NCBI RefSeq assembly: GCF_963675165.1
Contig: NC_087379.1
Location: forward strand, 5,721,442 to 5,785,441
Source: Halichondria panicea
Lineage: Eukaryota; Porifera; Demospongiae; Suberitida; Halichondriidae
Length of the DNA: 64,000 nt
Direction of reading: 5' to 3'
Below are positions 1,653-60,906 of the stretch, piece after piece; within the stretch, counting starts at the first letter, position 1; every line of letters starts with the position of its first letter. The notes below the pieces were generated by a model, which made no database searches, was not told where the DNA came from, and worked only from the letters and a program-made list of their open reading frames with translations. The position numbers and the translations under genes are program-made.

Positions 1653-3909
1653 CCACCATTCCCACTGTAGTGAGCCCCCCGTCTTGTACTGGACTGACAG
1701 ACAGCAGTAATTCAACCAACTCCTCTCCAGTTAACAGTCTAGTGTCTCCTTCTTCATCGTCATCACTCACTACATGGAAAAAAAACTAATGTAACCATGC
1801 AGCTTACAGTGATAATGAATGTATCTCTAGAGTACATGCAAAATGCATTTTTGGGTCCCTAGCTCCACTCAATAAGCAACTGGTTATGTACAAAATGTAT
1901 GACATAATTTATAAGTATTTATATATAAGTTCCTTTTTGAATCAGAATGGTCTTGATCTTCAACTGAAGGTCTAACACTTTCAACTGGAGGCTTCTTAGC
2001 TTCAATTTCACCACGTGCTGGCTCTACTGCAAAGTTCGTGTCTTGGGTTTCGATTGTTGAAGTCTTTGCATCATCAACGGCATCAGTATCTATGGTGTCA
2101 TTGACGGTGACTGTCTGGTCATCCATTGCACATTCATCAGAGGAGGTGGAGTCATGGCGACTGGATGACTCGGAGCCAGGTTCTGATCCTGATTCCAGCA
2201 TGGGACTCGGATTTGGTGAATTCAACAGCTCGAGTTGTTGCAGCCGCTCAGTTTCCATGGTAGCAGACCAGAATGCTACAGTAAGGGACGGACAGTCTTC
2301 AGTGAAGTACTTGAGCCATTCTTGCCTGCATTATAGATAACGAGCATTAGGTAATAATTATATACCGTATAGAGCACATTGAGGGTATAAGTGTTCGTGG
2401 TTTTCGCTGATTAAGCATGTATCGCTAACACATTAATTATTTTTATAACCACACATTTAATACTGCAGCTATTCCTCAAAAATTAAATCCGAGAAAACAT
2501 TTCTAACGGTTATTCCGCGAAGGTTGTGATACCAATCAGTCAAAATGATATCATTGTTAATTCTCACCGTTGCTTGAGTGTTAATAGGTCGGACTTGCTG
2601 ATGAGCACTACATTCACTTTCTCAGACTTGATTTCCTTCACATACTTCTCCTGGAGAAATGGTACCAAACAATAAGAGATCACAAAGCAACTTGTTGAGT
2701 TTACCAAATCTTCACATCGGAAGAGAAGAGGATTTCGTGCATCAACGATCTGCACCACCACATCACTGAGCAAAATACAGCACTCAATCATGTGACAATC
2801 CACATCTACCATAACACCAGAGGAGGTACGACACGAGCACCTCTATTAGGCTTGGTCACATGTGACTAATCGAGGTACTCGTGTCGGACCTCCTCTGAAC
2901 ACCGTAAATGCAATAGCTAAACACACTCTATCTCGATCATTCTCACCTTCTCTCGATAACTCTCCACAGTTGTCTCCAGAACTCGAGGTTCCTCTCAAAT
3001 GGAGTGAGGACCAACTTCTCGTTCTCCTCCAGTACCACGAGGCCCCTCCTCCACTCTAGGAATGAGTCCCTCTCCAACTGGTCCAGCTCTTTTCCTGTTG
3101 TCGTGGAGTCCCAGTGAGGCCTGGAGGGGAACAAAAACAGCACTTAGTGGCTCTATTCTCTCATTCAAAGGTAGCTAACAACATCAAATCTTTTGACAAG
3201 TATATAATGCCATTATGGGCCTTCAAATCTCCACATAAAAAAAACTATGCCAGTTTATTGTGTGTTCTGATACTATACCTTACCTTCTGGGGATGCATAG
3301 GAACTCTTGATGATCTTTCTGAGCTTGCTCGATCTCTGCATACTCTGATGCACTGGGCAGACCCGTGTAAACACTAAAGTCCACCACCCGTATATTCAGC
3401 TTCTCTGCAACGACAAAGAATGAGACACAAACCTCCAAACTATATAAACTACTAAAATCGAGTATAGGCATTAAAAAATAATTATCATTGTGTAGTTTTA
3501 AAATAATATGCGCTCTGCACAGCGTACCTGCTGTGAATTCAGTTCCTGCCAGTTTAGCGGTGTTGAGGAACTCGTCCAACCTACTCTCCTCAGTCACAGA
3601 GCGGAGGTTCAGGCGACCCCACTCGTACCCATCCTCCAACTCACTGCTATGCAACTACAGAGAATTGAATACTCTTTGGTAAGCTAGCTAGGTGCTCAGA
3701 CAGAATAGACATTGGTTTGATGATGATAATTGAGCTGGTATCAAAAGTGTACATGCTATCTCTAGCTCTTGGACTCAGATCATTGGATATCATAGTCTTA
3801 CCCAACTGTCTGCCTGGGCTTTTCCAGCACCTCTTCTCCTTCTGTTTTTGTCCTTGATGATGGCCTTCCCCAGACCAGTCTTCCCACCTTTCTTTCCAGG
3901 TTGACTCAT
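1653..3909 (-). CDS. LSG1: LSG1, large-subunit GTPase 1, exons 1-8 (5' part)
   Basis: LSG1 is a cytoplasmic GTPase that releases Nmd3 from exported pre-60S ribosomes. Exons read from GT/AG sites and phases are 3802-3909 (start ATG, MSQPGKKGGKTGLGKAIIKD), 3528-3654, 3284-3404, 2947-3120 (PFERNLEFWRQLWRVIER), 2705-2765 (VVQIVDARNPLLFRCEDL), 2568-2650 (VVLISKSDLLTLKQR), 2012-2325 (donor tentative) and 1653-1769 (ends at VGMVG, GTG G|gt). Frames join without a break, giving about 368 codons; the human protein has about 660. The GTPase is circularly permuted: G4 (SKSD, normally NKxD) is here, and G1/P-loop should follow in exon 9. Exon 7 carries a Ser/Asp/Glu-rich insertion, as in the family. Exon 9 onward is not found between position 1 and 1653. 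It may lie off the left edge, or the gene may be truncated. Confidence 0.85.
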
Positions 3910-4188
3910 GTCTCAACTGTACATATATCTGTGTTTGTTTTGCTGAGCTGACTACACGAGGGTAAAGCAACGCCCATGCGCAGCCACACCCTTCTTTGCT
4001 TAGCCTGGATTTTGAGAAGCGTTTGGAATCGAGGCTATAATTATACCCATTCGCCATTAATTAATTTTTTGAGCAAATTATGTACTCATAACTATTATGC
4101 CATCCATGCTCATGACTGTGAAATAATGACAAAAGACAAAAGACGGGACTGCTGATTCTATGAGATGCACACAGCGCATGCACATGTA

Positions 4189-4464
4189 CTAATAATGAAC
4201 TCCTAACACATTGAGCAATGGCTCAGTATATGCTTCGAGAGAGTTCAGTACTTTCTTGACTGAGAGAACAAGAGTGGGAGTAGCGTAAATATCTTGTATC
4301 CTAGCAATAGTGTGGTTGTTAATTGATGAAGCTGAGATGGTAGGGAAGAGTCCCGTCCTCCCTGCATGGAGGGAGAAAGAGAACAGATAATTTATAGAGC
4401 ATAATACTGTAACAGTAATACAATGGCATGCATCTGCCGATGTGATTGCATTGCTAAGTAGCAA
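4189..4464 (-). other. unassigned open segment 5' of LSG1
   Basis: This is a 91-codon open stretch containing a possible acceptor (tccctccatgcag) and the segment RTGLFPTISASSINNHTIAR. I do not recognise the product. It lies between a copied LSG1 P-loop exon and LSG1 exon 1, so it may be intron or spacer from a duplicated unit. It is probably not a gene. Confidence 0.15.
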
Positions 4465-4709
4465 CTCCCCAAGCTGGTTGGTAGTGGAAATAATTATGCT
4501 CTAAAATTAGTGGCTATGTATAGACTTAGTGGTTGGCACACTAACAACCCAAAATACATCTCAGAAAATCTCTCCTCACGACAATTTCCGGTAGAGGACA
4601 CCCGGACTCCTCACATGTAAGCATTTCCTCCTATAATTATATACCAGATAAATATCTGTATTAAATCCTGGCCTATATGGCACAGTTACACAATTATAAA
4701 TAAGCTCAC

Positions 4710-4807
4710 CTGAAAGTGTTTCGCCTCCTTGGAGTGGCAGACACTGGGACCTTCTTGCACTGAATGAGGTCATTGATGGTGGAGCTCTTGCATGCCATCA
4801 TTGGGGT
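4710..4807 (-). pseudogene. LSG1 P-loop exon copy 1
   Basis: On the minus strand it encodes a decayed version of the LSG1 exon that follows VGMVG: the inferred intact exon reads YPNVGKSSTIN then KKVPVSATPGG then NTFR. Here the P-loop glycine region is garbled (CCCCAATGATGGCATGCAAG) but the ATP-like end (KKVPVSA) and the donor AGGTGAGC are intact. It lies 5' of LSG1 exon 1, so it cannot be the native exon 9. It follows transporter copy A, as in the other units. Confidence 0.75.
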
Positions 4808-5001
4808 ATATACCTCACCTGTACACAATGGAATAGTATTTTAGACAATAATTGCTCTACTAAAACTCCCTTGGTTACTTTTCACTACGAATTTGTCCAA
4901 GTCATTACTATACTAAATTATAACAATCCTTATTTCAACAACAGTTTTATAACTCCAAACCTAAATATCTCGCTAAACAGTCTATTGTTATCACTACACA
5001 G

Positions 5002-5964
5002 TCATGGGGTCTCTGAGTCAGAATCACTCTCAAAGTGAACATCTAGATCTTCAAATTCCCGATTGTGATTAACATCCTTCTTGTAAACTTCTTCAATGAA
5101 TTTTCTTACATTGCAATCTTCCTCACACTGACGATACTGATACTTCTTTGCTGCTACTATGAAAACTACAACACCTACGACTGAGATCACAAATGTTTAC
5201 CAAGAAATAAACCAGTCATAATTCAGCTGCACTTCATACTAGTTTCACAAAGCTTATTCCAATATAGAGTGTGAAGAGAAACCAGTGAATGAAAAGAAAG
5301 CTGTCTCTAGAAGGAGAATCATTTAATTGGTCAACCCCAAACTGAATAACATTGGCTAAAAATCCAGCAAATGCAATCCAAATGGATATAAGAAAAAAAA
5401 GTCCAAGTACACCCATCACTAACAAGAACAAAACCCATAGGGCTGTGTAGGAAGGGTCATTTGCAAACCTAATTCGAGATAACATCAGTGGCCAAACAAT
5501 GGCATTTGCAATACCACCGATAACAGTCACAGTCAAGAGTCCACACCACGTGGTACAAACACCACATCTCACAACTTTATATCTGCCGTATCGAATATCT
5601 GCACAGTATCCGGCTAGAGGATAGAAGAGGAGCCCGAAAGCAGATACAGCATATATATATATATGCCACTAGCTATAAAAAATACCTCAATATTCTCCAA
5701 ACCAGATTGGGGTATAATGAACACCAACAAGTAAGCTTCAGGATTCAGACAACTACCATAGATCAACGACATTAATTAAAGCAGTCCAACAGAGAATCAT
5801 TATTGCAGCCTTTGACTTGATTAGTACACTTTTCTTGTTGCCATATTTCCCGTGAATACTTGTCACGAGTGGTGTGGCTTCAGTGGCATCTCTGCTGGCA
5901 TCTGGTGCAGGAGTTTCATGAAGGGAAGCTTGCTCTATATAGTTCCTTGCTCACAACTAGCCAT
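5002..5964 (-). pseudogene. POT-like transporter copy A, internally deleted
   Basis: The 5' end matches the family start (MASCEQGTIEQ) at 5964, with an early frameshift where ctatagttcc became ctatatagttcc. The middle (5234-5572) encodes the CGVCTTWCGLLTVTVIGG to LYIGISFVKLV region. The 3' end (5002-5190) encodes the cytosolic tail ending SDSDSETP. Between 5190 and 5234 about 900 bp are missing: the loop with GGPFTTEQVENV and membrane segments 7-10. A dead copy. Its closest relative by the RLRF/ASYTALW-type loop is copy L or J. It lies directly before LSG1 P-loop exon copy 1. Confidence 0.85.
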
Positions 5965-6652
5965 TGGTCTGAGTGTATAGCTACCTAAAGAGTCTCCCAA
6001 ACTTAACAAGCAAAGCCCTTGTTTACAGCACCTTTGCAACACATGAACACGTACATGAAACCACAATGTACTGTTGTAGTAAATTGTGGTTACTCAAATT
6101 TGGTGCATGGGAGACCATCTTCAGTGTTCTCCTAACTGTCCAGTGAGTGGTGTAGAACCAAGCCCCTCCTTAACACTGCATGCTTGCTTTTTGCCCAAGC
6201 TCAATGGAATCAAAGAATCAAGCTTTTAATTGTACGCAAATACACCAATCAAGCCCAGAGCATGCAAAGTTAATATCTTTTTTAAGGGACCACCCCAAGA
6301 TCCCTTTGCAGGCGCATTTTAATATGTGTGCACATGCGTATCAGCTCCCCTTCTAAGCTCTTTCTACTATCCATGTTCTCTAAGTGATAACTCTCTTCCT
6401 ACGCCACTGCTGTCAAAATGTTCACGTTTCAAATTGCTAGCTATTAGTCTGTGTGATATGAGATAGACCAAGTACACACCTCTGGTACACACGTCTGTGG
6501 AGTAGGCCTTATTTCTGCAACCGTGTATAGCTAGATCTATTATAGTTGTTGTGTTAGTACACTGGTCAATTTTGATTTGATACTGCAATTGTAAAGAAAT
6601 CAAATCACTCAAGTATATGTAGTCCATGTTTACATTGTGGTCTACCCATTAA
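5965..6652. other. upstream flank of copy A
   Basis: No gene seen. The first 150 bp resemble the upstream flanks of other transporter copies (cctaaagaaatgcccag, then a stretch with acaagggctttt). The rest is unique, non-coding sequence. Confidence 0.3.
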
Positions 6653-7074
6653 TGTGACAGGGCCTAGGAAAACAACCCTTATGGAGCAAACTAATTAATT
6701 GTATTTTATTGCTTAATTAAATAAAGCAGTGCTTAAGCTTCAAATTGATTACAATATCACTCACTTTGCACCTTCCTACCCCAAAATATTTTCGGGTGAA
6801 AGGGGGACAGTATTGACCTACCGTTTTGAGAAACTAATGTTCGAAGTTCTATCCGCATACAAGAACAGCATGAAAAAATTCAATGGCTGCCTTGTAACGG
6901 CTAATACAAAAAAATTTTCGGATAAAAAAATTTTTTTTTAGTTAGAGGAGATATTGAAGTTACTTCTTATGAAAGAAAACCAAAATCCTAAAATAGCTCT
7001 AAATATTTTACTTTGTAGTGTACTGAACATTATTAGTTTGCTCCATAAGGGTTGTTTTCCTAGGCCCTGTCACA
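6653..7074. mobile_element. MITE with 40-bp inverted ends (TGTGACAGGGCC)
   Basis: Ends tgtgacagggcctaggaaaa and ttttcctaggccctgtcaca are perfect inverses, and the match extends through gttgctccataagggttgt-type sequence for about 40 bp. The interior is non-coding. No clean target duplication was seen, so the superfamily is open. Confidence 0.7.
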
Positions 7075-7261
7075 ATTTGTGTGTGTAATAGAATTAAAAA
7101 GGAGCCCACAACAACATGACAAACATGCACGCAGAAAACACCAATTAATATGCAAATCACTTTTACTAGAAGGCGAGCGAAGCGAGCATAGATTGACGTA
7201 CGTAGATCAATCAAACAACTTCCTTGAGTATAAAAGAGCGTAAGTTTTGCTTGATTCAATC
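7075..7261. repeat. shared 5' flank block of transporter units
   Basis: Contains catgacaaacatgcacgcag, then a tract near aaggcgagcgaagcgagcat, then taaaagagcgtaagttttg. The same block precedes copies D (20.7 kb), F (26.2 kb), G (28.5 kb), J (51.3 kb) and appears at 14.7 kb. It marks the upstream part of each duplicated unit. It could include promoter sequence, but nothing specific was identified. Confidence 0.5.
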
Positions 7262-9185: not shown

Positions 9186-9374
9186 TACCGTATGTTTTGT
9201 ATGGTGGAAATTTTCGTAGATTTCGTATTGAGAGCACCATACGAAAATTAAAACTACGAAATTATTCTACTGCAATACATCACTATCCTGAGCTGAACCA
9301 ATAAAAATACGAGATATTTAAATGGATTGTTCGTACGAAAATTTCCACCAAGGAAAATGACCCGTTATACGGTA
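9186..9374. mobile_element. mariner-type MITE (taccgtatg..catacggta-like)
   Basis: The left end taccgtatgttttgtatggt and right end cccgttatacggta are inverse at the tips, with inner inverse words ggtggaaattttcgta and tacgaaaatttccacc. TA flanked. The duplicate is at about 55066-55252. Confidence 0.55.
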
Positions 9375-9459
9375 TAATTGTATGTTTTATAAATTGTGGA
9401 TTGGGCTATCCTCATTCCCAGGCTAATTTTTCTCTAGAAAAACGGGGGTGGTGATGAGG

Positions 9460-9663: not shown

Positions 9664-9689
9664 GTGATGAGGTTTACCCCGCTATATAT

Positions 9690-13256: not shown

Positions 13257-13373
13257 TTGCTGGACCAGACATTATAACTTTCTCTGTATGGATCTGTTTG
13301 CCCCTAAAGATGTATATGCAGGGAACAAGTAGTCCTATATGCTGAGAAAGGAAAACGCAAAGTCCAAGAAAGT

Positions 13374-15294: not shown

Positions 15295-15332
15295 AGAGCA
15301 TAAATCCAGCCACCCACCATAATTACCATTTT
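15295..15332 (-). pseudogene. LSG1 exon 8/intron 8 junction copy
   Basis: The minus strand reads atggtgggtggctgg followed by an intron-like attta...tgct, matching the end of LSG1 exon 8 and start of intron 8 at 1660-1620. It is also present at about 51575-51605. This ties the transporter upstream flank to LSG1 intron 8. Confidence 0.55.
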
Positions 15333-15524
15333 TGTTTGCAGCGAACTAAGCGAGTGCTATAATGGCTTGGAAAAAATCGCAAAAACCTGCACCATGCAAG
15401 CTTTGTTAAAAAGTACTGAAGTATATAGGCAGATACCTATTAGAGCTACGTTAACGACTATGATGTGTTTAGTGAGCACACTATAATATATATTACTCCA
15501 ATTACAGCCATAAGCTCTATACAG

Positions 15525-15640
15525 CTCCTCAGCATAAGGTGGTCGATCAGGGTCTTCCCCTTCCTCTCCTGGAGACAAGCCGTGAGATGCGTGAGGCCAC
15601 GACGAACACTGGGGGAATGAGGTCCCTCATCTGGTCTATG
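15525..15640 (-). pseudogene. LSG1 late exon copy, fused to transporter fragment
   Basis: The minus strand encodes IDQMRDLIPPVFVVASRISR then a frameshift, then EGEDPDRPPYAEELYRAYG. This corresponds to the LSG1 region DQMRDHVPPV..EDEDPHRPP..EELLTAYG. The fusion point to transporter copy C is at about 15641: the reading ...GGVFEFTIDQMRDL... is open across the join. Intact junction relatives are at 34.2, 51.9 and 60.5 kb. Confidence 0.75.
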
Positions 15641-16340
15641 GTGAATTCAAACACTCCACCATAGATAGAGACATAGGCCACAGCAACAAGGACTTGCTGA
15701 ATAATGAGAAAGTATGGGGAGACATGAAGGGAGAGAGCAGGATCAAAATTAATTCTTGTATAACAAGTCTAGGAGCAAACACTGAAGTAGCATTGCGGCC
15801 GTTAAGGATAAAGTGACCAATTGTGCCAACAAATTAAACAGTGAGCAAAACAGACTAACAGCGATAAAACAAAGACCAATTCCAATTCACCTCAAAATAA
15901 CAAGGGAGGAACTTTTGAAACAGAGGATGAATAAAGTAGACAAAAAGAATGATGAAGACAGGGTACAGAGTGCCACCATTAGTAAATATAGAGTCAACAT
16001 AAACTAATATCAGGTGGTCAAATGTAAATCTCTGCCTGCAAGTGATCTTTAAGTATACTGAGAAATGGCGCTGCGGCAATATCAGCCGTAAAAAATGATT
16101 TCACATTTTCCACTTGCTCAGTATAGTGAATGGTCCTCCATACTCGTCCTTGCCTAGATCCAGTCCAGTGGGTATGTCATCCTCCCAGAATGTAAAGGCA
16201 CTGTACCAGTTTCCCAAAGCTTATTCCGATATATTATAATTATTGTGAAGAGAAAGAAAAGAAAGCTGTCTCTATAAGGAGACTCATTTAATTGGTCAAC
16301 ACAAAACTGGCTAAAAATCCAGCAAATGCAATCAACAAGG
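15641..16340 (-). pseudogene. POT-like transporter copy C, heavily decayed
   Basis: Fragments in family order on the minus strand: about 16340-16200 (segment around ANVIQF and LYIGISFGKLV, with deletions), 16200-16120 (AFTFWEDDIPTGLDLG), 16100-15820 (AAPFLSIL to FVPIFLKF-like), 15810-15641 (loop and YVSIYGGVFEF). The N-terminus and the conserved C-terminal tail are missing. Several short deletions and stops. Non-functional. Confidence 0.8.
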
Positions 16341-21119: not shown

Positions 21120-21450
21120 CAGCTGAACCGGATTTCAATAGGTTATGGGCCTAGTGTCACAGTGCTAGCTAGCTGAAGTGAATAGAGACTATTTTGTCGT
21201 TGTCTTGGTGCTTAACTTGTTCGTTGCGGTAGAGACTATTTTGTAAGCCAGGTTCTTCTGTTTGTCGTCTTGGTGTTAACTTGTTCGTCGCGACAGTAAA
21301 CTTGTTTGTTACAGCAGTTGCATGAACATGGCTGAGAGCGTTAGAAGTACGGTATCGGTTGTTCCGCTGAACAGTAGTAACTATGCTACGTGGAAGATTC
21401 AAGCGAAGATGACACTGTTGAAGGAGAGACTGTGGAAGATAGTCAATGAT
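21120..21450 (+). mobile_element. Ty1/Copia retrotransposon 5' fragment
   Basis: gatttcaataggttatgggc resembles the LTR end plus Met-tRNA primer-binding region of Copia elements. A leader follows, then a gag start at 21322 whose residues VVPLNSSNYATWKIQAKM and LLKERLWKIV fit the Copia gag N-terminal domain. After about 45 codons the sequence switches abruptly to LSG1 P-loop exon sequence, so only the 5' end survives. The second LTR was not seen. Confidence 0.7.
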
Positions 21451-21464
21451 TGCACCAAATGGTG

Positions 21465-21500
21465 TACAGATGGTGGAGCTCTGTCAACATTGGGATACCA
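21465..21500 (-). pseudogene. LSG1 P-loop exon copy 2 (fragment)
   Basis: ggtggagctctgtcaacatt followed by gggatacc is the inverse of the YPNVGKSST segment with one substitution. The flank actagtataaacaatgg-like onward matches the sequence next to the other P-loop copies. It is truncated on its 3' side by the Copia fragment. Confidence 0.65.
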
Positions 21501-30465: not shown

Positions 30466-30619
30466 AAGTGAAAACTAAATGAATGTGTGCGTGCATGGGG
30501 CATGTGATGCATAGATAAGGGTATACATTTTAACTATACTAATGAACATGATGCAAAAGATATAGAAAGTATACACATTGAATCCACATAGTTTCAGGTT
30601 CAGCTCACACAAGTCACCT

Positions 30620-30702
30620 GAAAGTGTTTAGTCTCCATGGAGTGGCGACCTTCTTGCACTGAATGAGGGCATTGATGGTGGAGCTCTTGCCAACATTGGG
30701 GT
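30620..30702 (-). pseudogene. LSG1 P-loop exon copy 3
   Basis: The minus strand reads YPNVGKSSTINALIQCKKV, then a 12-bp deletion removes PVSA, then ATPWRLNTFR and a gtgact donor. The P-loop GKSS is perfect. The duplicate is at 59117-59199. Confidence 0.8.
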
Positions 30703-31335
30703 ACCATGCACCTGTAACAATGGAACTAGAGCACTGAAGTGCTTGCTAATTAACCCCTGGCTGTTTTACGTCTCACAACCAAGCAGGTAATAATACGGTG
30801 AAAGCTATGAGAAGGCTTTGAAAACGGTAGTGGTGTATGGTCAGACATACACTAGAATCATAGGATCACAGCAGAAAGAAGTCAACAAATTAAGGCACCT
30901 GAAATGCACTCTGAGAGTCCTAGACCGTTATTTGGATCACAGCAGCTAGAGCAGGCCTGAAGTGTTAAAAAGTAGGACACCATGCAAGCTGACATGCAGC
31001 TAGTGGGGATCAGCAAAGAAACCTGGAGTCCTTTCCCATGAAAATAAATAATTACGTATCCACGTGGCTGTAACAGTGCCCTGAATAAACCAACGACTAT
31101 ACAATATATACCCGTGACTGTCCATGCACTCCTCGGGTAACCAACAGACTATTATACCCCTGACTGCCCATGTGCCTCAGGGGCGTAGCCAGGATTTTGG
31201 AGAAAGGGGTGCCATCATAAATGAAAGAGGGCGCTTTGCGCCCGATTTTTAGCCGCACAGCGCCAAAATTTGGTTGACCGGAAGCCACACCTCTTATTAA
31301 TGACGTCATAATTCCGAGTGAAGCGAGGCTATAAT

Positions 31336-33975: not shown

Positions 33976-34154
33976 CTTATACTTTATACTTGCACTTCAT
34001 TGATCCTTGAGTAGCTGTTACAGTAGCAGTCTACAAGCACATGCAGCAGACACACACACAGGCACAAAGGAAAACATGCAAACACACTACCGTATACCGT
34101 ATCCACATTCCTATATGTTATGAATGTATACATTATGTTAATGATATGCTTACA

Positions 34155-34380
34155 GCCATAAGCTCCACACAGATCCTCAGCATATAAGGTGGTCGATCAG
34201 GGTCCTCCCCTTCTTGCGGGTGTGGTATGATTCCATAGGTATCCTCGAGGACAAGCCGTGGGATTCGTGAGGCCACGAGGGGCACTGGGGGAATTAATGT
34301 GATCTCTCATTTGGGTAAGAGTCATTTTGGAGGTTACAAAGGTGTGGGAGAGGAGGACACACGTGGGGGAAACCTCTCAC
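34155..34380 (-). pseudogene. LSG1 late exon copy (34.2 kb)
   Basis: The minus strand encodes TFVTSKMTLTQMRDHI, then VASRIPRLVLEDTYGI after a small insertion, then a frame-shifted EGEDPDRPP and YAEDLCGAYG. This matches the human LSG1 order STKAEM..DQMRDHVPPVSLV..IPRHVLEATYGI..EDPHRPP. It lies 150 bp downstream, in transcription sense, of P-loop exon copy 4, a natural exon-intron-exon spacing. Confidence 0.8.
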
Positions 34381-34527
34381 TCATTAAGGGGTCGAATTTG
34401 ATTATGTGTGTGTACGTGTGGAGTAGGGAGTATATTATAGGGGATGGTAATTAATAAGAATGCAAAAGGATATAACACAAAAAGTACACCGTACACATAA
34501 TTAATTCATAATTTCACTCAGCTCACC

Positions 34528-34626
34528 TAAAAGTGTTTCGTCCTCCCTCAGAGTGGCAGGCAGACACTGGGACCTTCATGCACTGAATGAGGGCATTGAT
34601 GGTGGAGCTCTTTCCAACATTGGGGA
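34528..34626 (-). pseudogene. LSG1 P-loop exon copy 4
   Basis: The minus strand reads PNVGKSSTINALIQCMKVPV followed by the SACHSEGGRNTF region and a donor AGGTGAGC-like site (ttaggtgagc). The acceptor side is damaged (ggagttcccc). The duplicate is at 60807-60906. Confidence 0.8.
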
Positions 34627-35500
34627 ACTCCACGGCCTGTTGCCAACACATTTCAGATGTGCAGAGTGCATGTACGTCAAAATGGCAGTATCTGCCCAGC
34701 GCTATATGATGGCAATAATTATCATAACTTGTATCCTAGCTTGAGGCTTTGTGCTGTGCTTTTAAAAATCAAACTAGGCTGGCCTATAGTTCCCAGGTGA
34801 CGAGAAAAAAGACGTGCTGATTTAGCACAGTTTGAATGTCTCCAGTTTTAGCACGTTCGCACATGTGATAAACAACCTGATGTGCTAAACTGGCACATGT
34901 CTAATGTGTTGAAACATCTGTGCTGATTGTAAATCAATTATTTCACATCAATTCAGTATTAAAATTGTATCTAAACAAACGATAAGGATATACAAAAGTG
35001 AAAGGTTTCTTTTAACATATAGTTAAGCATAACAAGTCTGCACTCAGTTCACTGCAATTGCAAGATACTGCCTTTGACTTCTCAGCATCACCTGCATGCG
35101 TGAAGTAGAAAAAATATGTCACATAAAAGCCAGTAGAATTATAACCAAGTATAAGAATAATTAAGTGCGTATAGACATAACATCAGTCATAGCATGAACA
35201 AAGTATGCATTGCGATGAAACTTATAATTATTATGGGGCGAAATAAGAAAAGTATTTGCTGTGATCCATGACAAATGCCGAGTGCATGAAAAAGTACACG
35301 AGCCAAAAGAAAAGAATTCTACCTACAGAAAGAGCCATATAACACAGGTAAGACCAAGAGGAAGAGTACACAACTCCAATAGTCTGTACACAGGAGGCAA
35401 ACTCACTATTGCATGTAACCACAGTCACTTGAGATACAAAAATGATAATAACAATGCTGATAAGGAATAAAATTAGTGGTAATCATCACTAATGTTTATT

Positions 35501-38989: not shown

Positions 38990-39590
38990 GTACAATAATT
39001 ATTATACAATAGCTGTGCAAATACATTGTACAGATGCTCCCCTGTGTAATGTAAGACACCCTGGTATAATAATTATTATACAATAGCTGTGCAAATACAT
39101 TGTACAGATACTCCCCCTGGCCTGTGTACTGTATGACACCTGGTACAATAATTATTATATTATACAATAGCTGTGCAAATACATTGTACAGATGCTCCCC
39201 TGTGTAATGTAAGACACCCTGGTATAATAATTATTATACAATAGCTGTGCAAATACATTGTACAGATACTCCCCCTGGCCTGTGTACTGTATGACACCTG
39301 GTACAATAATTATTATATTATACAATAGCTGTGCAAATACATTGTACAGATGCTCCCCTGTGTAATGTAAGACACCCTGGTATAATAATTATTATACAAT
39401 AGCTGTGCAAATACATTGTACAGATACTCCCCCTGGCCTGTGTACTGTATGACACCTGGTACAATAATTATTATATTATACAATAGCTGTGCAAATACAT
39501 TGTACAGATGCTCCCCTGTGTAATGTAAGACACCCTGGTACAATAATTATTATATACAATAGCTGTGCAAATACAATTGTACAGCATTGT
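38967..39590. repeat. minisatellite, alternating about 74/83-bp units
   Basis: caatagctgtgcaaatacat occurs eight times at about 74- and 83-bp intervals, giving a higher-order dimer of about 157 bp repeated nearly four times. Each unit includes gacaccctggta, the element terminus from 38989, and a hairpin-prone aataattattat. The array seems to have grown from the end of the adjoining element. The peptides read from it are artefacts. Confidence 0.85.
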
Positions 39591-40567: not shown

Positions 40568-42451
40568 TCATTGGGTGTCTGAGTCAGAATCGCTCTCAAA
40601 GTGAACATCTAAATCTTCGAAGTCACGATTATGACTCACATCTTTCTCGTAAAAATCTTCAATGTATTTTCTTACATTACAAAGTTCATCACGTTGTCGA
40701 TACTGATACCTCTTTGCTGCTACTACGAAAACCACAACACCTGCGACTGAGATCACAATGTTCACCAGGAAATAAACCAGTCCAGCTCGAGGGGAGTCTT
40801 GCCAGATACTAAACGGTAGAAGAATTCCAAGAATACCAATCAACTGAAATAGTCCTTTAATGGCAAAAAAAATTCCAATGAGAAATCCTTTCATAGAGTG
40901 AGGGCTTTGAGCACATATGAATTCAAACACTCCACCATAGATAAATACATAGGCCACAGCAATAAGGACTTGCTGAATAAAGAGAAAGTATGGGGAGACA
41001 TTAAGGGAGAGAGTAGGATCAAATTCATTGTAATAATTATTTTGTCCAGGAGCAAACACTGAAGTAGCATTGCGGCCGCTAGGGAGAAGGTGACCAATTG
41101 TATCAACAAACAGTGAGCAAAACAGACTGACAGTTATGAGACAAAGACCAATTCCAATTCGCCTCAAAATACCAGGGAAGTATTTTTGAAAAAGAGGATG
41201 AATAAATTTGAGAAAAATAGGAACAAAAAGAATAATAAAGACGGGGTACAGAGTGCCACCATTAGTGAATATAGAGTCAACAATGTTGCTTACACTAATA
41301 ACAGGTGGCCCAATGTTAGGAGGCTCTGCTTTCATGTGATCTTTCAGTATACTGAGAAATGGCGCTGCAGCAATATCAGCCGTAAAGAATGGTCCAATTG
41401 AAAATAAAAGGACAACGATTCCAAAAAATGATTTCACATTCTCCACCTGCTCGGTAGTGAATGGTCCTCCATACTTGTGCTTGCCTAGATCCAGTCCAGT
41501 GGGTATGTTATCCTCCCAGAATGTAAAGGCACTGCGTTGAATAGGAATCTTGTTTCTTCTTGCAAAGTTGACAACTCTTGCAACCTCTTTGTAAGGATTA
41601 TCAATGCCAGTGTCAATAACAAACCACCTGCGCTTAGCAACACAGAAAGTTGTAGGTAAACAAATAAGCTCAACTAATACGACAAGTAGAAATAGGGAAA
41701 GGCTTAAGAAATTAGTGGCATAAGCTGCACTCCATACAAGTTTTCCAACGCTTATTCCAATATATAGTGTGAAGAGAAACCAGTGAACGAAGAGAAAGCT
41801 GTCTCTAGAAGGAGAATCATTTAATTGTTCAACCCCAAACTGAATAACATTGGCTAAAAATGCAGCAAATGCAATCAACAACGAGATAAGAAGAAAAAGT
41901 GCAAGTGCACTATTCACCACTAAAAGCAAAATAAATACTAGAACCCAGTAATGAGGATAACTTACCAAAATAAAAATTGGCACAATAATGGCGTTGACAA
42001 CGACACCGAGAATAACCACTGTCAAGAGTCCACACCACATGGTACACACACCACATCTCACAACTTTATATCTTCCATATCGAACATCTGCCAAGTATCC
42101 GGCTAGAGGATAGAAGAGGAGCCAGAAAGCAAATACAGCATATATACCACTATCTATCATCTCACTGGTAATGGTAATTATTGGTGTGAAAGGTATTTTC
42201 ATCAATAGGTTAGTGAATAAGAAATAATTTTCAGGATTCAGCAAGAAACCATATATGAAAGACATTAATGCAGTCCAACAGAGAATCATTATTGCAGCCT
42301 TTGACTTGATTAGTACACTTTTCTTGTTGCCATATTTCCTGTGATTACTTGTCATGAGTGGTGTTGCTTCAGTGGCATCTCTGCTAGCATCTGGTGCAGG
42401 AGTTTCATGAAGGGAAGCTTGCTCTATAGTTCCTTGCTCACAACTAGCCAT
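40568..42451 (-). CDS. POT/SLC15-like transporter copy I, intact, 627 aa
   Basis: Single-exon gene, the only undamaged member of the array. A cytosolic N-tail of about 50 residues precedes 12 or so predicted membrane helices. Helix 1 lies at about 52-72. The segment AGYLADVRYGRYKVV (117-131) fits the PTR2 signature at the helix 2-3 turn. HWFLFTLYIGISVGKLV (223-239) sits at the second PTR2 site, with Gly where Asn is usual. A cytosolic loop holds GGPFTTEQVENVKSFF (328-343). An extracellular loop at about 455-485 has one N-x-S/T site. The tail is acidic (FESDSDSDTQ). The family moves peptides or histidine-like solutes with protons. Helix 1 lacks the ExxER motif, so substrate and coupling are uncertain. 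EATPLM in the N-tail could act as an acidic dileucine-type sorting signal (inference). Confidence 0.85.
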   Translation of the reverse strand: MASCEQGTIEQASLHETPAPDASRDATEATPLMTSNHRKYGNKKSVLIKSKAAIMILCWTALMSFIYGFLLNPENYFLFTNLLMKIPFTPIITITSEMIDSGIYAVFAFWLLFYPLAGYLADVRYGRYKVVRCGVCTMWCGLLTVVILGVVVNAIIVPIFILVSYPHYWVLVFILLLVVNSALALFLLISLLIAFAAFLANVIQFGVEQLNDSPSRDSFLFVHWFLFTLYIGISVGKLVWSAAYATNFLSLSLFLLVVLVELICLPTTFCVAKRRWFVIDTGIDNPYKEVARVVNFARRNKIPIQRSAFTFWEDNIPTGLDLGKHKYGGPFTTEQVENVKSFFGIVVLLFSIGPFFTADIAAAPFLSILKDHMKAEPPNIGPPVISVSNIVDSIFTNGGTLYPVFIILFVPIFLKFIHPLFQKYFPGILRRIGIGLCLITVSLFCSLFVDTIGHLLPSGRNATSVFAPGQNNYYNEFDPTLSLNVSPYFLFIQQVLIAVAYVFIYGGVFEFICAQSPHSMKGFLIGIFFAIKGLFQLIGILGILLPFSIWQDSPRAGLVYFLVNIVISVAGVVVFVVAAKRYQYRQRDELCNVRKYIEDFYEKDVSHNRDFEDLDVHFESDSDSDTQ

Positions 42452-47096: not shown

Positions 47097-47099
47097 TAA

Positions 47100-49030: not shown

Positions 49031-49036
49031 TTATAC

Positions 49037-49120
49037 TTGAAAGTGTTTAGTCCTCCCTGGAGTGCATGGCAGACCTCCGTGCACTGAATGAGGGCATTGA
49101 CGGTGGAGCTCTTGCCAACA
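49037..49120 (-). pseudogene. LSG1 P-loop exon copy 5
   Basis: The minus strand reads VGKSSTVNALIQCTEV with damaged VCHALQGG..NTF; the P-loop is intact (GKSS) and the 5' part of the exon is cut at 49120. It lies 150 bp downstream, in transcription sense, of transporter J. Confidence 0.75.
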
Positions 49121-51156: not shown

Positions 51157-51569
51157 TAATTGGTCTTACAGTGAGTGTAGCTACCTAAAGAATGTCCAGT
51201 TATTATAACAAAAAACAGCCCTTGTTTATATCTAATCTGAAAATCTGTGGCAGACTAATAGAATTATAGAGGAGCCCTACAACTGACAAACAGGCACCAG
51301 AAAATAATAAAAACGAATCACTTTTACTTGAACATTGAGGGCAAGCATACGTATAGATAATGTACTTACATCAATTGAACGGCTTCATTCAGTGAGGTAA
51401 AAAGCGTAAGTTTTGTTGATTCTATCGAGTGACATACGATACATATATACATGCAAACGAACATACATACAAACAGAAAAATGCATGTGTAAGTCGCTAG
51501 TGTATAGGGCTCGGCTTGCTTCGCTCTCCCAATCGGCACGCAAGTACATAATTATACATACACACCAAT

Positions 51570-51606
51570 AGCAGGACATAATAATCCAGCCACCCACCAT
51601 GATTCA
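51570..51606 (-). pseudogene. LSG1 exon 8/intron 8 junction copy (J unit)
   Basis: The minus strand reads atggtgggtggctggattat then tatgtcctgctat, nearly identical to the LSG1 exon 8 donor region at 1660-1628 (ggattattatgttccgctat). It lies upstream of transporter J, between it and the late-exon copy. Confidence 0.75.
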
Positions 51607-51905
51607 GTAATGGTTGGAAAAAACAAGATCACAAAAACCTACACCAAGCTTTGTGAAACACACTTTTTTAATCGAACAGATACCAAAGTTAAGGAGATTC
51701 CACCCACAAGCACTCCGCCAAAAGTACACCTGTCAATATGGTTGATTCCATTCCTTACCGATAGTAAGGTGTCATGCAGGGTACTCTGACAGTATTGGAT
51801 AGCACTGAAATCTATAGGCAGATACCTATTAGAGCTACGTTAATGATTACGACATATTCCTACGTAGGTTATGTGTTTTAGTGAGCACATTATTATTCCA
51901 CTTAC

Positions 51906-52140
51906 AGCCATAAGCTCCACACATGCAGCTCCTCAGCATAACGTGGTTAATTAAGGTCCTCCTCTTCCTGGGGTGTGGTAGTCTTATTCCGTAGGTCTCC
52001 TCGAGGACAAGCCGTGAGATTCTTGAGGCCACGAGGGATACTGAGGGAATGTGGTCCCTCATGCATCTGGTCTATGGTAGGATCCAATTTAGAGGTGGGG
52101 GAGCGATGGGCTACATGATCGAGGATTGAGCCTCTCACTC
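51906..52140 (-). pseudogene. LSG1 late exon copy (51.9 kb)
   Basis: The minus strand encodes TIDQM, then a 4-bp insertion (gcat), then RDHIPSVSLVASRISRLVLE and ETYGIRLPHP, then a frameshift before the EEDLN/..MLRS region, ending at gagctgcatgtgtgg. It corresponds to the LSG1 DQMRDHVPPVSLV..LEATYGI segment. It sits between P-loop copy 6 and the exon 8 junction copy. Confidence 0.8.
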
Positions 52141-52328
52141 AAGTAGAAAACGTGAACTAAATGAGTGTGTGCGTGGAGTAAGGGATGGTAATATATATAT
52201 ACAGGGTACAGTGTATATATATATAGTCGAACAATGAACTGCTAGGATATAAGAGGATATATTTCTAAACAAAGAAAGTACACAAATTGAATTCACATAG
52301 TTTCACTGGTTCAGCTTACACAAGTTAC

Positions 52329-52407
52329 ATGAAAGTGTTTACTCCTTCCTGGACTAGGACCTTCGTGCACTTATATTGATAGTGGAGCTCTTGCCAACAT
52401 TGGGATA
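52329..52407 (-). pseudogene. LSG1 P-loop exon copy 6
   Basis: The minus strand reads YPNVGKSST, then a deletion and a stop, then CTKVL and a damaged tail. The acceptor side (atacaggtgagagtatccc) is similar to copy 1. Confidence 0.75.
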
Positions 52408-52489
52408 CTCTCACCTGTATATAGACAATGGAAGGATATTTCAGATCTTCAGCACAGTGGTGGGTGGCCACAAAGTTTCTGAGTTACAG

Positions 52490-54160: not shown

Positions 54161-54165
54161 TATCT

Positions 54166-56800: not shown

Positions 56801-57703
56801 CCTGCTCGGTAGTGAATGGTCCTCCATATTTATCCTTGCCTAGATCCAGTCCAGTGGGTATGTTATCCTCCCAGAATGTAAAGGCACTGCGTTGAATAGG
56901 AATCTTGTTTCTTCTTGCAAAGCTGACAACTCTTGCAACTTTTTTGTAAGGATTACCAATACCAGTGTCAATAACAAACCACCTGCGCTTAGCAACACAG
57001 AATGTTACTGGTACACAAATCAGCTCAACTAACATGACAAGTCCAAAAATAGAAAGGCTTAATAAACCAGAGGCATTAGCTGAACTCCATACCAGTTTTC
57101 CAAAGCTTATTCCAATATAGAGTGTGAAGAGAAAAAGTCCAAGTACACCCATCCCTAACCCGAAAATAGCCCATAGAGCTATGTAGGATGCGTCACTTTC
57201 AAACCTAAGTCTAGATAATATTAGTGGCAAAACAATGGCATTCACAATGACACCGATAACAATAGAAGTCAAGAGTCCACACCACGTGGTACAAACACCA
57301 CATCTCACAACTTTATATCTGCCATATCGAACATCTGCCAAGTATCCGGCTAGAGGATAGAAGAGGAGCCAGAAAGCAAATACAGCATATATACCACTAT
57401 CTATCATCTCACTGTTTAATGCTGGTAAGGATGTAGGGTCTACCAGGCCCATAAATAGGTAAGTGTGAATAAGAAATAATTTTCAGGGTTCAGAAAACCA
57501 CCATATATGAAAGACATTAAGGCAGTCCAAATAAGAATCATTATTGCAGCCTTTGACTTGATTAGCACACTTTCCTTGTTGCCATATTTCCCGTGATTTC
57601 TTGTCACGAGTGGTGTGGCTTCAGTGGCATTTCTACTGGCATCTGGTGCAGGAGTTTCATGAAGGGAAGCTTGCTCTATAGTTCCTTGCTCAAGACTAGC
57701 CAT
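55897..57703 (-). pseudogene. POT-like transporter copy L, three lesions
   Basis: The start MASLEQGTIEQASLHETP is at 57703. Lesions are a 2-bp insertion at about 57463 (gtaagtgtgaat), an in-frame loss of about 105 bp at 57135 that deletes the FAGFLANVIQFGVDQLND segment, and a 2-bp insertion at about 56765 (ggatataaaaa) after FFGIF. The 3' part (56688-55897) is open and ends SDSDSEIQ. Its 3' half matches copy B and its 5' half copy G, so L is a recombinant. Confidence 0.85.
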
Positions 57704-58386
57704 TGCTATTACAGTTAGTGTACTGTATGATAGCTCAGCCTGTAGCTAAATAGTTATTGCTCACTTGCCTATTAAAACATTAACCCTTGTTTATCTAATC
57801 TGAAAATCTGTGGCTAGACTAATAGGACAAACATGACACACATGCAGGCAGAAAACAACATTAATTATGCAAATCACTTTACTAAAAACGTTGAGCAACA
57901 TACATACGATACATACATACATACATGATATACATACATGCAAACACGCAAAAATACCGTACATGCATGTTCTAATTTATCGAACAGCAAAAACTAAAAA
58001 TTGTCCGGGAACATAGAGCATGAGCAGTGTTCGGAATAGTTAGAATAAACATGCAGCTGCATGCGGCTAATAGAAGAGTGTGTAACTGAATAGTTGCACA
58101 AGCTATCTAATCCTTAAACTATCTATCTGCAGCACTCAGTCTCTTACTGGCCGGCTATAAAAAGCTACGTTGCTCATTTTTTCTAACTAAACGTGTCCTA
58201 ATGGAACTGTGTTGGCTGTATTCAGTGAGGTGTAGGTTAGTGTGGCTTAACTTTTCAATAATGTCCAGATATTTAGTAATATTATAGGAGTGTCCGTTGT
58301 ATTAGAACAACAAAAATTGCCTAAAAGAGTGTCCGGTGTAATTAGAAGTGTCCGATAAATTAGAAGATATACGGTACATGCATACA

Positions 58387-58724
58387 TACCGTATAGCAGG
58401 TATCGAGGGTATAAACTTCGCAGAATGACCGTTATAAAAGTTTTTGCAGATTTAATTTTCGCAGAATAGCAGCTTTCTGCAGCATGCATGCTTGTGTAAC
58501 ATTGTGACAATGTATTATACTATTGAACTACTAAACGTTAGATTAGTTAATATACGGCATGATGTAATAAGTGTTCTGGGCATGTCACGTATGATTGAAA
58601 GTGATAGAAAGAGTTGAGTTTGTTACACATTCGTGGGACGGGGTATATAAACGTTCGCAGTAGATGCTTAATCAGCGAAAACCACAAACATTTATATCCT
58701 CGAAAATACCCGCTATATACGGTA
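58387..58724. mobile_element. mariner-type MITE (duplicate of 29881-30220)
   Basis: taccgtatagcaggtatcga and tacccgctatatacggta ends, with a few internal differences from the 29.9-kb copy. Confidence 0.65.
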
Positions 58725-58856
58725 CATACAAACATAAACCGAAAAATGTATGATTCTATTCTTCACCAATAGTATGGCGTCATGCAGGTATTCTGCTACG
58801 TAACGATTATGACATACTCCTAGGTTATGTGTTTTAGTGAGCTCACTATTAGTCCT

Positions 58857-58980
58857 ACAGCCATAAGCTACACACAGCTTCTCCGGTTTATTTCCTGGTG
58901 AACATTGTGATCTCAGTCGCAGGTGTTGTGGTGTTCATAGTAGCAGCAAAGAGGTATACCAATAGTAGAAAGTGAAAACT
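58857..58980. pseudogene. LSG1 late-exon end / transporter tail junction (duplicate)
   Basis: Same opposite-orientation join as 30342-30465, copied with the block. Confidence 0.75.
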
Positions 58981-59116
58981 AAATGAATGTGTGCGTGCAT
59001 GGGGCATGTGATGCATAGATAAGGGTATACTATACTAATGAACATGATGCAAAAGATATAGAAAGTATACACATTGAATCCACATAGTTTCAGGTTCAGC
59101 TCACACAAGTCACCTG

Positions 59117-59199
59117 AAAGTGTTTAGTCTCCATGGAGTGGCGACCTTCTTGCACTGAATGAGGGCATTGATGGTGGAGCTCTTGCCAACATTGGGGTA
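59117..59199 (-). pseudogene. LSG1 P-loop exon copy 7
   Basis: Duplicate of copy 3, with the same deletion after CKKV and an intact GKSS. Confidence 0.8.
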
Positions 59200-59719
59200 C
59201 CATGCACCTGTAACAATGGAACTAGAGCACTGAAGTGCTTGCTAATTAATCCTTGGCTGTTTTACGTCTCACAACCAAGCAGGTAATAATACGGTGAAAG
59301 CTATGAGAAGGCTTTGAAAACGGTAGTGGTGCATGGTCAGACATACACTATATATAGGATTATAGGATCACAGCAGAAAGAAGTCAACAAATAAGGCACC
59401 TGAAATGCACTCTGAGAGTCCTAGACCGTTATTTGGATCACAGCAGCTAGAGCAGGCCTGAAGTGTTAAAAGTAGGACACCATGCAAGCTGACATACAGC
59501 TAGTGGGATCAGCAAAGAAACCTGGAGTCCTTTCCCATGAAAATAAATAATTACGTATCCACGTGGCTGTAATAGTGCCTCGAATAAATTACAAACAGAC
59601 AGACAAACAAACAAACAAACCAACGGACTACTATATATACCCGTGACTGTCCACACACTCCTCAGGTAACCAACAGACTACTATACCCCTGACCGCCCAC
59701 GTGCCTCATATTAGATCTG

Positions 59720-60040
59720 CACAGTGGTAGGTGGCCGCAACATTTCTGAATGATAGCATGCCTGCATGGCATACAAGTATATCTGCACCACTCCTGGCAG
59801 TGCTATACACTATGCTTTAAAAATTGTGGATTGGGCTAGCCTATGCTTTAAAAATTGTGGATTGGGCTAGCCTCAGGCCAATTTTTCTCCAGAACAACCG
59901 GGATAGTGTAATGAGGCTATATAAGGATTGAATGTGCCATGCAGTACAGCTTGTGGTGACAGGTGGTATTGTGGTCATGTCTTCAATGTGACCACAAAGC
60001 CAATATTGCTAATACATGTACACACAGATATCATTATGTT
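59720..60040 (-). repeat. orphan transporter 3' flank (duplicate)
   Basis: Counterpart of 33380-33700, with a 47-bp tandem duplication (tatgctttaaaaattgtgga ... gggctagcct) at 59811-59872 absent from copy 1, and part of the hairpin lost (ggtcatgtcttc). Confidence 0.6.
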
Positions 60041-60432
60041 CTTGTGGTAATCACAGGGAAACTCGACTAAAAGCTAACATTAATGGCTGCTGCATCAGTA
60101 AAAAGCTTACAGCTCTTTTTCTCACTCTTGCAGCTATATACCAATAGCTATAGTGTTCTTGTGCAAAGCTAACTACTCTATAAGAACACTCCATAGACAA
60201 GTTTTGTTATATACGCACTCTTCTGAAAAGGCTGCAATAACATTTATAGGCATAACTCGAGAACAAAGCATTATTTTGCAAATCCACGAATTAAAATCCT
60301 GTTACAGTAGCAGTCTACATGCACATGCAGCAGACACACACACAGGCACAAAGGCAAACATGCAAACACACTACCGTATACCGTATCCACATTCCTATGT
60401 TAAATGTATACATTATTTTAATGATATGCTTA

Positions 60433-60660
60433 CAGCCATAAGCTCCACACAGCTCCTCAGCATATAAGGTGGTCGAGTAGGGTCCTCCCCTTCCTGGGTG
60501 TGGTATAGTCTGATTCCATAGGTATCCTCGAGGACAAGCCGTGGGATTCGTGAGGCCACAAGGGACACTGGGGGAATGTGATCTCTCATTTGGGTAAGAG
60601 TCATTTTGGAGGTTACAAAGGTGGGGGAGAGGAGAACACACATGGGGGAAACCTCTCACT
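60433..60660 (-). pseudogene. LSG1 late exon copy (60.5 kb)
   Basis: The minus strand encodes TFVTSKMTLTQMRDHIPPV, SLVASRIPRLVLEDTYGI, then EGEDPTRPPYMLRS after a small deletion, ending EELCGAYGC in another frame. The best preserved late-exon copy. P-loop copy 8 lies 150 bp upstream in transcription sense. Confidence 0.8.
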
Positions 60661-60806
60661 CATTAAGGGGTCGAATTTGATTATGTGTGTGTACGTGTGG
60701 AGTAGGGAGTATATTATAGGGGATGGTAATTAATAAGAATGTAAAAGGATAAAACACATAAAAAGTACACCGTACACATAATTAATTCATAATTTCACTC
60801 AGCTCA

Positions 60807-60906
60807 CCTAAAAGTGTTTCGTCCTCCCTCAGAGTGGCAGGCAGACACTGGGACCTTCATGCACTGAATGAGGGCATTGATGGTGGAGCTTTTTCCAACA
60901 TTGGGG
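60807..60906 (-). pseudogene. LSG1 P-loop exon copy 8
   Basis: Duplicate of copy 4. One substitution changes GKSST to GKSSTI with AAAGCTCC spelling; the rest matches. Confidence 0.8.

Follow-up and report, generated by a model that had tools for sequence, protein, structure and literature searches.

The kind of system closest to the locus described here is modular duplication, such as that of RCCX in the human MHC (STK19-C4-CYP21-TNX). Extracts from a description of RCCX (PMC8362596) report modules in which working genes are accompanied by truncated parts of neighbouring genes (TNXA and STK19B), in a locus reshaped by unequal crossover and gene conversion. As far as these extracts go, the array of the sponge Halichondria panicea is similar in its tandem modules, with a repeated unit that pairs a complete gene with truncated pieces of a neighbour. 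By contrast, each of the one to three RCCX modules has its genes next to one another or with overlapping 3' ends, whereas in the LSG1 array one gene lies within an intron of the other, the pieces number 33 and inner exons of the host appear as passengers. The Sdic cluster of Drosophila melanogaster, derived from sw/Cdic and AnnX, is likewise a tandem cluster, one that arose when adjacent genes were duplicated and partly lost; Sdic itself is a chimera of its two source genes. Among the titles and abstract openings listed for nested genes in tandem arrays and for SLC15 genes in sponges or SLC15 expansions, no such arrangement was found.

The window (the whole stretch of DNA that was analysed, 64,000 nucleotides of contig C3) is part of an array about three times its length. 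Across 188 kb of C3 are spread 33 pieces of SLC15A4-like POT transporters, 29 of which are on the strand of LSG1 (minus), together with 20 copies of exon 9 (the P-loop exon) of LSG1 and nine places with exon 10, all on the minus strand (blastn, E <= 1e-3). Protein matches to the 3' half of LSG1 concentrate at C3:5.66-5.84 Mb (24 of 26 in the genome; the other two, on C7 and C13, are weak), in searches that may overlook relics that are decayed or lie in withheld stretches. Beside its LSG1 copy (LSG1-B), the window includes eight exon-9 and four exon-10 copies, all minus (E <= 1e-3), and 13 POT pieces, ten minus and three plus. A sequence-only reading of the window had reported copies of the P-loop exon and of a late LSG1 exon, everything on the same strand; both sets of exon copies are borne out, while the common strand holds for LSG1 and not for the POT pieces, which at ten minus to three plus are not single-stranded in orientation.

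The identity of the host is indicated by the window copy, whose stretch from the last part of exon 4 through exon 6 matches LSG1 of the pre-60S structure 6lsr (E 4.3e-41), and by LSG1-A, which aligns at 49% over 674 columns to an approximate human LSG1 sequence. The LSG1-A translation has the permuted motif order DARNPLL ... KSD ... GxPNVGKS ... DCPG, which we take to be that of LSG1, a circularly permuted 60S GTPase; in LSG1-B the last of these motifs reads CGCPG and is followed by a frameshift.

Three 5' halves of LSG1 are noted in the array (A, B and C), and these whole-gene copies extend beyond what could be seen in the window. LSG1-A (C3:5670675-5661878) stands 51-60 kb to the left of the window and marks the array's edge on that side; with 13 of 13 exons, 12 GT-AG introns and a frame free of internal stops, it is a complete LSG1 copy, the only one in the array to stay so. 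LSG1-B occupies window positions 3909-1657 (minus), with exon 1 and its start codon at 3802-3909 (blastn to LSG1-A exon 1, 97.2% over 108/108), exons 2-6 at 2568-3654 (98-100% by BLAST; exons 2, 3 and 5 identical to LSG1-A, 4 and 6 at 98.3-98.8%), exon 7 at 1934-2325 (92%) and exon 8 at 1657-1769 (95%). Over exons 1-6, A and B differ at 7 of 674 sites (~1%), all seven synonymous third positions. LSG1-B is nonetheless broken: the 5' splice site of exon 7 is GG (window ~1933) instead of GT, exon 10 has a frameshifting 55-nt deletion, and the remaining downstream part, which lies to the left of the window, is both out of frame and cut short, with exon 13 missing. The GG donor, the exon-10 frameshift and the lost exon 13 rule out LSG1-B as a working gene, and LSG1 copy C is a pseudogene. 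Among A, B and C, exons 1-6 diverge by 1-2% and introns 1-6 by 7-11%. An exon-limited, cDNA-type conversion was considered for this pattern and dropped as unproven, because the seven synonymous A/B exon differences are also explained by recent loss of function.

In both LSG1-A and LSG1-B, a whole transporter gene is found within intron 8, intronless and on the strand of its host. Intron 8 of LSG1-A (C3:5668254-5663838) contains an uninterrupted transporter at 5666635-5664764. The 5' part of LSG1-B intron 8 (window 1-1656, minus) extends left of the window, and its uninterrupted POT transporter is just left of position 1 (C3:5718094-5716247; window -3347 to -5194), flanked by exon 8 (window 1657) and exon 9 (window -5385). 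The two nested transporters differ at a dS of 0.27, against the ~1% divergence of host exons 1-6, and are not recovered as sisters in the tree of array transporters, in which the root and the fork holding both are without resolution. Thus, in A and B the nested gene has not simply shared the descent of its host exons, and with this discordance neither of today's nested transporters is necessarily the founder.

The sequence-only reading was partly confirmed in its observations and partly supported in its interpretation. The presence of LSG1 exons 1-8 at the left stands, while their intactness fails on the GG donor and the frameshifted, truncated remainder. An intronless transporter in intron 8 is confirmed, and an exon 9 left of position 1 with no intervening transporter, which was named as counter-evidence, is not what is found, as a transporter separates exons 8 and 9. 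The claim that the 3' half of the host gene was itself multiplied and shredded, at the cost of the host, is not supported, as LSG1-A is complete with 13 exons; the broken pieces are those of extra copies.

A recurring association of transporter and exon 9 is observed across the array (LSG1-A and LSG1-B included). Exon 9 is within 1 kb on the 3' side of 13 of the 29 minus-strand POT pieces, compared to a mean of 3.41 and a maximum of 12 in 20,000 random placements, and within 1 kb on the 5' side of none of the 29. The stretch from transporter through 3' flank to exon 9 is homologous among six units (z 8-30 vs shuffles), in four of which (P04, P25, P09 and P30) the former intron-8 acceptor region is recognisable. 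Three findings run counter to amplification of LSG1 together with its nested transporter: 16 of the 29 minus-strand pieces lack exon 9 at this distance, the spacer from POT to exon 9 in LSG1-B matches the mini-units weakly (z -0.3 to 6.0), and that of LSG1-A measures 926 bp.

Within the window, the exon-9 relic upstream of LSG1-B exon 1 (4710-4808, 90%) is 3' of the partial piece P25 (5008-5938), and another (49038-49120) is 165 bp 3' of P16 (49285-51156), a 602-aa open frame that stops before the usual C-terminus. Exon-9 and exon-10 relics stand in order at 34154-34633 and 60434-60913, and further exon-9 relics are at 21450-21499 (partial), 30618-30705 and 59114-59201, all of these features being minus. 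P17 (40568-42451, minus, 627 aa) is the only uninterrupted full-length transporter of the window. The other minus-strand pieces are P24 (10024-11905, full span but frameshifted), P22 (17562-20156, interrupted), P21, P20 and P19 (22137-28378, partial or interrupted) and P14 (55900-57703, interrupted), while inverted fragments on the plus strand include P18 (30349-30477) and P13 (58853-58981), of 129 nt each, and P15 (52611-53418).

A join of intron 10 to the start of intron 8 is common to four places (C3:5773041, 5736765, 5696855 and 5686297) and is the scar expected from unequal exchange, although at 5736765 just part of the common stretch is kept and at 5686297 the immediately preceding bases differ. 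Two places of the window, ~51600 and ~15324, have the first bases of intron 8 only. The former (51568-52408, minus) includes an exon-9 relic (71%), an exon-10 relic (52085-51906) and the join, followed by 30 bp from the start of intron 8 (51597-51568); the latter (15324-15641, minus) includes an exon-10 relic (15641-15506, 72%), overlapped by position by the end of the partial minus-strand piece P23 (15562-16202), and the join ending at ~15324. The sole full exon 8/intron 8 junction of the window is that of LSG1-B (1657/1656), and full exon-8 ends are those of LSG1-A, -B and -C, with three decayed ends outside the window. Thus, the repeated full junctions proposed from the sequence reduce to one plus two intron-8-start scars; the proposed exchange of intron and neighbouring exons agrees with the four joins, of which it would be the likely cause.

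With a probability of roughly 80%, the array was seeded by a transporter in LSG1 intron 8 and amplified through unequal exchange and whole-gene copying. The founder unit would be an ancestral LSG1 whose intron 8 housed a same-strand, intronless transporter resembling SLC15A4. Unequal exchange may then have fused one copy's intron 10 to the intron 8 start of the next, to form a repeatable mini-unit of intron 8 start, transporter, exon 9 and exon 10. Whole-gene copies (A, B and C) would also have been made, and probably later than the transporter-exon 9 unit upstream of LSG1 exon 1, since the spacer from that exon-9 relic to exon 1 is alignable in all three. LSG1-A, at the left edge, alone would have stayed complete, with splicing, frame or ends lost in B and C; the transporter copies are presumably the part retained and the LSG1 pieces passengers.

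Alternatively, the mini-units may be eroded whole-gene duplicates from which exons 1-8 and 11-13 were deleted copy by copy, with no repeated intron-10/intron-8 exchange. The three 5' halves, each with its upstream exon-9 relic and alignable spacer, fit this account and indicate that whole-gene copying happened. Such erosion is unlikely to be the source of the mini-units, as an identical join at four places would hardly arise from independent deletions and exons 1-7 are kept in just three places vs 20 copies of exon 9. On the favoured origin by exchange and copying, the readable scars show how an intronic gene can multiply while its host survives: surplus host copies decay and the complete one is at the array edge. 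According to an excerpt on yeast LSG1 (PMC4623693), the gene is essential there; thus, selection should preserve the complete edge copy where it stands. Non-coding exons of the host supply a clock from within the young gene family.

Late copying is shown by two pairs of near-identical blocks, one pair of 9.7 kb (97.5% identity) and one of 11.7 kb (98.8%). In highly polymorphic animals allelic divergence can reach such differences, and heterozygous haplotypes placed end to end could have lengthened the array in assembly. This is very improbable for the array as a whole, as the 212 kb of assembly are free of N, dS is 0.17-0.32 in 35 of the 36 pairs of intact transporters (well above allelic) and the array pattern is independent of the two young block pairs. 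Least credible is a mobile element (e.g., a Helitron-like carrier of gene fragments) that captured the transporter and LSG1 exons and then spread, for while transporter relatives are noted on C2, C5 and C3:5.37 Mb, and a dispersed transporter fragment on C4 (3,349 kb) adjoins a 70% relic of LSG1 exon 4, the LSG1 relics found are otherwise confined to one locus and one strand, and the stretches retrieved with the relatives on C2, C5 and C3 (5.37 Mb) contain no LSG1 exon. The C2 stretch has a single 15-bp match to exon 10 (E 0.035). The C4 relic is absent from the results of the genome-wide protein search, so further decayed relics may be missed.

Judged by homology, the array genes are SLC15A4-like POT transporters, which may perform proton-coupled transport of peptides or histidine. 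P17 and the P16 frame match Pfam PTR2 (PF00854) at 48.6 and 50.5 bits (gathering score 27), and the nearest solved relative by sequence is SLC15A4/PHT1 (E 2.9e-15). SLC15A4/PHT1 also ranks first in Foldseek for the predicted fold (E 1.4e-11), from a weak AlphaFold model (mean pLDDT 62.4), and identity to SLC15A4 entries is 17-20% in fold alignments. The POT/SLC15 family has an ExxER motif on helix 1; in an alignment read by eye, none of 12 proteins has it at helix 1, the site being WTALMS or similar.

The array includes nine intact full-length transporter frames. By plain pairwise counts (Nei-Gojobori style), dN/dS is 0.38-0.59 in 35 of 36 pairs and 0.81 in the youngest (P12/P17); thus, the intact transporters are under purifying selection overall. 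Recombination among the copies is detected by a custom script following the PHI idea (the observed value is attained in none of 2,000 permutations), and this segment exchange most likely occurs by ectopic conversion.

Variation among the transporter copies is greatest in the extracytosolic loops, with sides assigned by helix order from the GxLADxRxGR loop, presumed to be cytosolic. This variation poses the question of whether a transporter family may evolve like a receptor family. A tentative and rather doubtful possibility is that an SLC15A4-like family in the intron of a housekeeping gene generates diversity, its cytosolic face near-fixed and its extracytosolic loops differing in both length and sequence and swapped among copies by ectopic conversion; unlike ordinary peptide transporters, its members may present surfaces for recognition or uptake towards microbes, food peptides or self/non-self, with the exon-9 and exon-10 relics as neutral tags of duplication order. 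At 0.323, pS of the extracytosolic loops is about three times that of the cytosolic loops (0.101), so the loop contrast partly reflects regional divergence or uneven conversion instead of selection. Gaps in the loop alignments may inflate loop pN; in gap-free columns the loop picture is similar.

The transporter array is best explained by an LSG1 gene with a transporter nested in its intron 8, multiplied by unequal exchange so that the LSG1 pieces travelled as passengers (probability about 0.8); confidence is lowered because one of the four joins described below is only partial and the nested copies are not shown as sisters. The sequence-only reading, which had proposed such a structure, is largely upheld, with the differences that the complete LSG1 lies elsewhere and that the transporter family is livelier than expected. 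The window (C3:5721442-5785441) derives from a 131-Mb genome of 39 contigs, of which 212 kb of NC_087379.1 (C3) around the window, free of N, were analysed by mapping LSG1 exons with an own exon model (blastn, E <= 1e-3) and transporter pieces by chained tblastn (E <= 1e-6). The transporter, a POT family member, is found as 33 pieces (labelled P) from C3:5664764 to 5852879, 29 on the minus strand and four on the plus strand. Nine of them span the full length without interruption (P04, P06, P09, P12, P17, P26, P27, P31 and P33), with P17 the sole such copy inside the window (window 40568-42451). Nearby, at window 39000-39554, a 158-bp unit is repeated head-to-tail in about three and a half identical copies.

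The LSG1 exons of the 212 kb, all on the minus strand, are unevenly represented: working exons included, exon 9 (the P-loop exon) has 20 copies, exon 10 occurs at nine places, exon 8 at six, exons 1-7 three times each, exons 11-12 twice and exon 13 once. Exon 9 lies less than 1 kb 3' of 13 of the 29 minus-strand transporter pieces (random placement: mean 3.41, maximum 12 in 20,000), and within 1 kb 5' of 0/29. Ten of the 13 transporter-exon 9 pairs were cut out and the seven with short spacers aligned, A33, P28 and P32 being excluded for their long spacers. Six units are homologous across the stretch between transporter stop and exon 9 (pair z 8-30), and P04, P25, P09 and P30 still show the former intron-8 acceptor region, while the corresponding spacer of the window's LSG1 matches other units weakly (z -0.3 to 6.0).

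A genome-wide protein search finds three LSG1 5' halves, all at the array locus (LSG1-A, -B and -C), and no further LSG1 among its matches, those on C7 and C13 reaching 51% over 37 and 36% over 58 residues. LSG1-A, located 51-60 kb to the left of the window (C3:5670675-5661878) and modelled by hand, has 13 exons, 12 GT-AG introns and no internal stop. The exons 1-8 reported at the window's left end are present (window 3909-1657, minus strand) and match the LSG1 of solved pre-60S structures; however, this copy, LSG1-B, is inferior to LSG1-A. LSG1-B retains exons 1-12, its exon-7 donor is GG compared to GT in LSG1-A and LSG1-C, its exon 10 is frameshifted by the loss of 55 nt (213 vs 268 nt), and exon 13 was not found (blastn, E <= 1e-3, 212 kb). 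LSG1-B was probably functional until recently, as all seven differences from LSG1-A among 674 sites of exons 1-6 are synonymous. LSG1-C (C3:5840351-5837805) includes exons 1-8 only, with the start codon lost and a 10-nt deletion in exon 2. While LSG1-C is a clear pseudogene, its exons 1-6 are 98% identical to those of LSG1-A and introns 1-6 differ by ~11%, a contrast that may reflect either recent loss of function or exon-biased conversion. Introns 1-7 are mosaic (A/B 64-99%, A/C 64-97% and B/C 86-99% alike), as expected from patchy exchange.

Within intron 8 of LSG1-A (C3:5668254-5663838), a transporter frame runs uninterrupted for about 625 codons (matched at 5666635-5664764), and within that of LSG1-B another does so for 616 codons (5718094-5716247), both on the strand of LSG1. 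The predicted intronless transporter in intron 8 is thus found in two copies, and one half of the contrary case, no transporter before exon 9 left of window position 1, is ruled out by LSG1-B. The two nested transporters differ by a dS of 0.27 and the tree does not resolve the fork holding them, whereas host exons 1-6 are 99% alike, which speaks against simple co-descent; exchange within intron 8, or exon conversion, must have intervened. Just inside intron 8 of LSG1-B, window ~1400-1590 forms part of a dispersed repeat: window 1400-1760 has 42 genome matches, the majority confined to this part.

The mini-units (intron 8 start, transporter, exon 9, exon 10) could instead be whole-gene duplicates eroded afterwards, an improbable alternative to amplification by unequal exchange, against which stand four joins of intron 10 to the start of intron 8 (C3:5773041, window ~51600; 5736765, window ~15324; 5696855; and 5686297). 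Each join runs from the exon 10 end and intron 10 start through about 180-330 bp of largely shared sequence into the first intron-8 bases; only part of the shared stretch is retained at 5736765, and the sequence just before the join differs at 5686297. A single founding exchange would have made the join, which would later have spread; whether confined to a single LSG1 or involving two whole copies, such an exchange yields the identical join. Decayed exon-8 ends with an intron-8 start occur at 5705471, 5824211 and 5855645, the latter two in the same duplicated block. Thus, in the window the complete junction of exon 8 with intron 8 occurs once, not repeatedly as had been thought.

Along transcription, the order is LSG1-C exons 1-8, mini-units, LSG1-B, more mini-units and LSG1-A. 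A transporter-exon 9 unit upstream of exon 1 probably predates the split of the three copies, since each carries an exon-9 relic (36 bp in LSG1-A) some 1 kb ahead of exon 1 and the spacer between is alignable in all, closely for B/C and partly for A. The 10 kb left of LSG1-A include PHD and SNF2 exons and no LSG1 exon or transporter piece (blastn, tblastn). An assembly artefact from haplotypes placed end to end is very unlikely, and a mobile element that captured the transporter with LSG1 exons and then spread is the least credible explanation. The arrangement is undescribed among the open-licence literature matches listed on nested genes in tandem arrays and SLC15 expansion; its likeness to RCCX lies in modular duplication with truncated neighbour genes (PMC8362596).

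In both sequence and fold, P17 comes nearest to SLC15A4. The ExxER motif of POT transporters is missing from all 12 proteins aligned, including distant paralogues. Pairwise dN/dS of the nine intact copies is 0.38-0.59 in 35/36 pairs and 0.81 for P12/P17. Their extracytosolic loops are strongly variable in length and sequence. Assigned extracytosolic loops have a pooled pN of 0.314 and pN/pS of 0.97, compared to 0.033 and 0.33 for cytosolic loops; pS is likewise higher (0.323 vs 0.101). By loop, pN/pS is 0.82, 0.91, 1.20, 0.53, 1.43 and 1.65 on the extracytosolic side and 0.11, 0.96, 0.48, 0.21 and 0.44 on the cytosolic side. The bootstrap range of extracytosolic loop 7-8 is entirely below 1 and none of the six is entirely above 1 (loop 9-10: 0.95-2.36); thus, positive selection is not shown. 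Extracytosolic loops, with 121 of 531 residues, hold 60 of 65 core gap columns. Segments are exchanged between copies: a PHI-type recombination test is positive (0/2,000 permutations), and P12 resembles P17 outside a segment at about alignment codons 91-210, which shares 89-100% identity with P31, located some 106 kb from P12. A diversity-generating family with possible recognition surfaces is a doubtful reading, as no loop ratio is clearly above 1 and pS is raised in the same loops; a recognition role is a guess. SLC15A4 itself is reported to transport bacterial peptides and to act in innate signalling (PMC11275134, PMC10502012).

Transporter relatives on C5 and C2 share 55-62% identity in longer matches, and an inverted, broken group lies to the left of the array at a distance of about 290 kb (C3:5369500-5378000, at 5.37 Mb). 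The stretches analysed around these three have no LSG1 exon; pieces of LSG1-A intron 8 flanking the transporter match there, partly inverted, and are taken for dispersed repeats. One copy of the 5.37-Mb group probably moved out of the array, as the tree nests it within the clade of the array copies (support 84/86), a clade that does not include the C5 and C2 copies. Some 150 bp ahead of the start of a dispersed transporter fragment at C4:3348.9-3350.1 kb lies an LSG1 exon-4 relic (70%), a join not seen in the main array.

Among neighbouring elements, an 11.7-kb block with a PPR-repeat gene (Pfam PPR_2) occurs twice (C3:5817463-5829110 and 5848860-5860566; 98.8% identical), a recent duplication. 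The fragment just beyond both ends of the blocks, which we take to resemble EMC1, has zero Pfam families in a Pfam scan. In the stretch following LSG1-C exon 8, an open frame of 494 codons (C3:5834387-5835868) is probably a tyrosine-recombinase element, with 351 scanned codons matching DUF3504, Phage_integrase and QRICH1.
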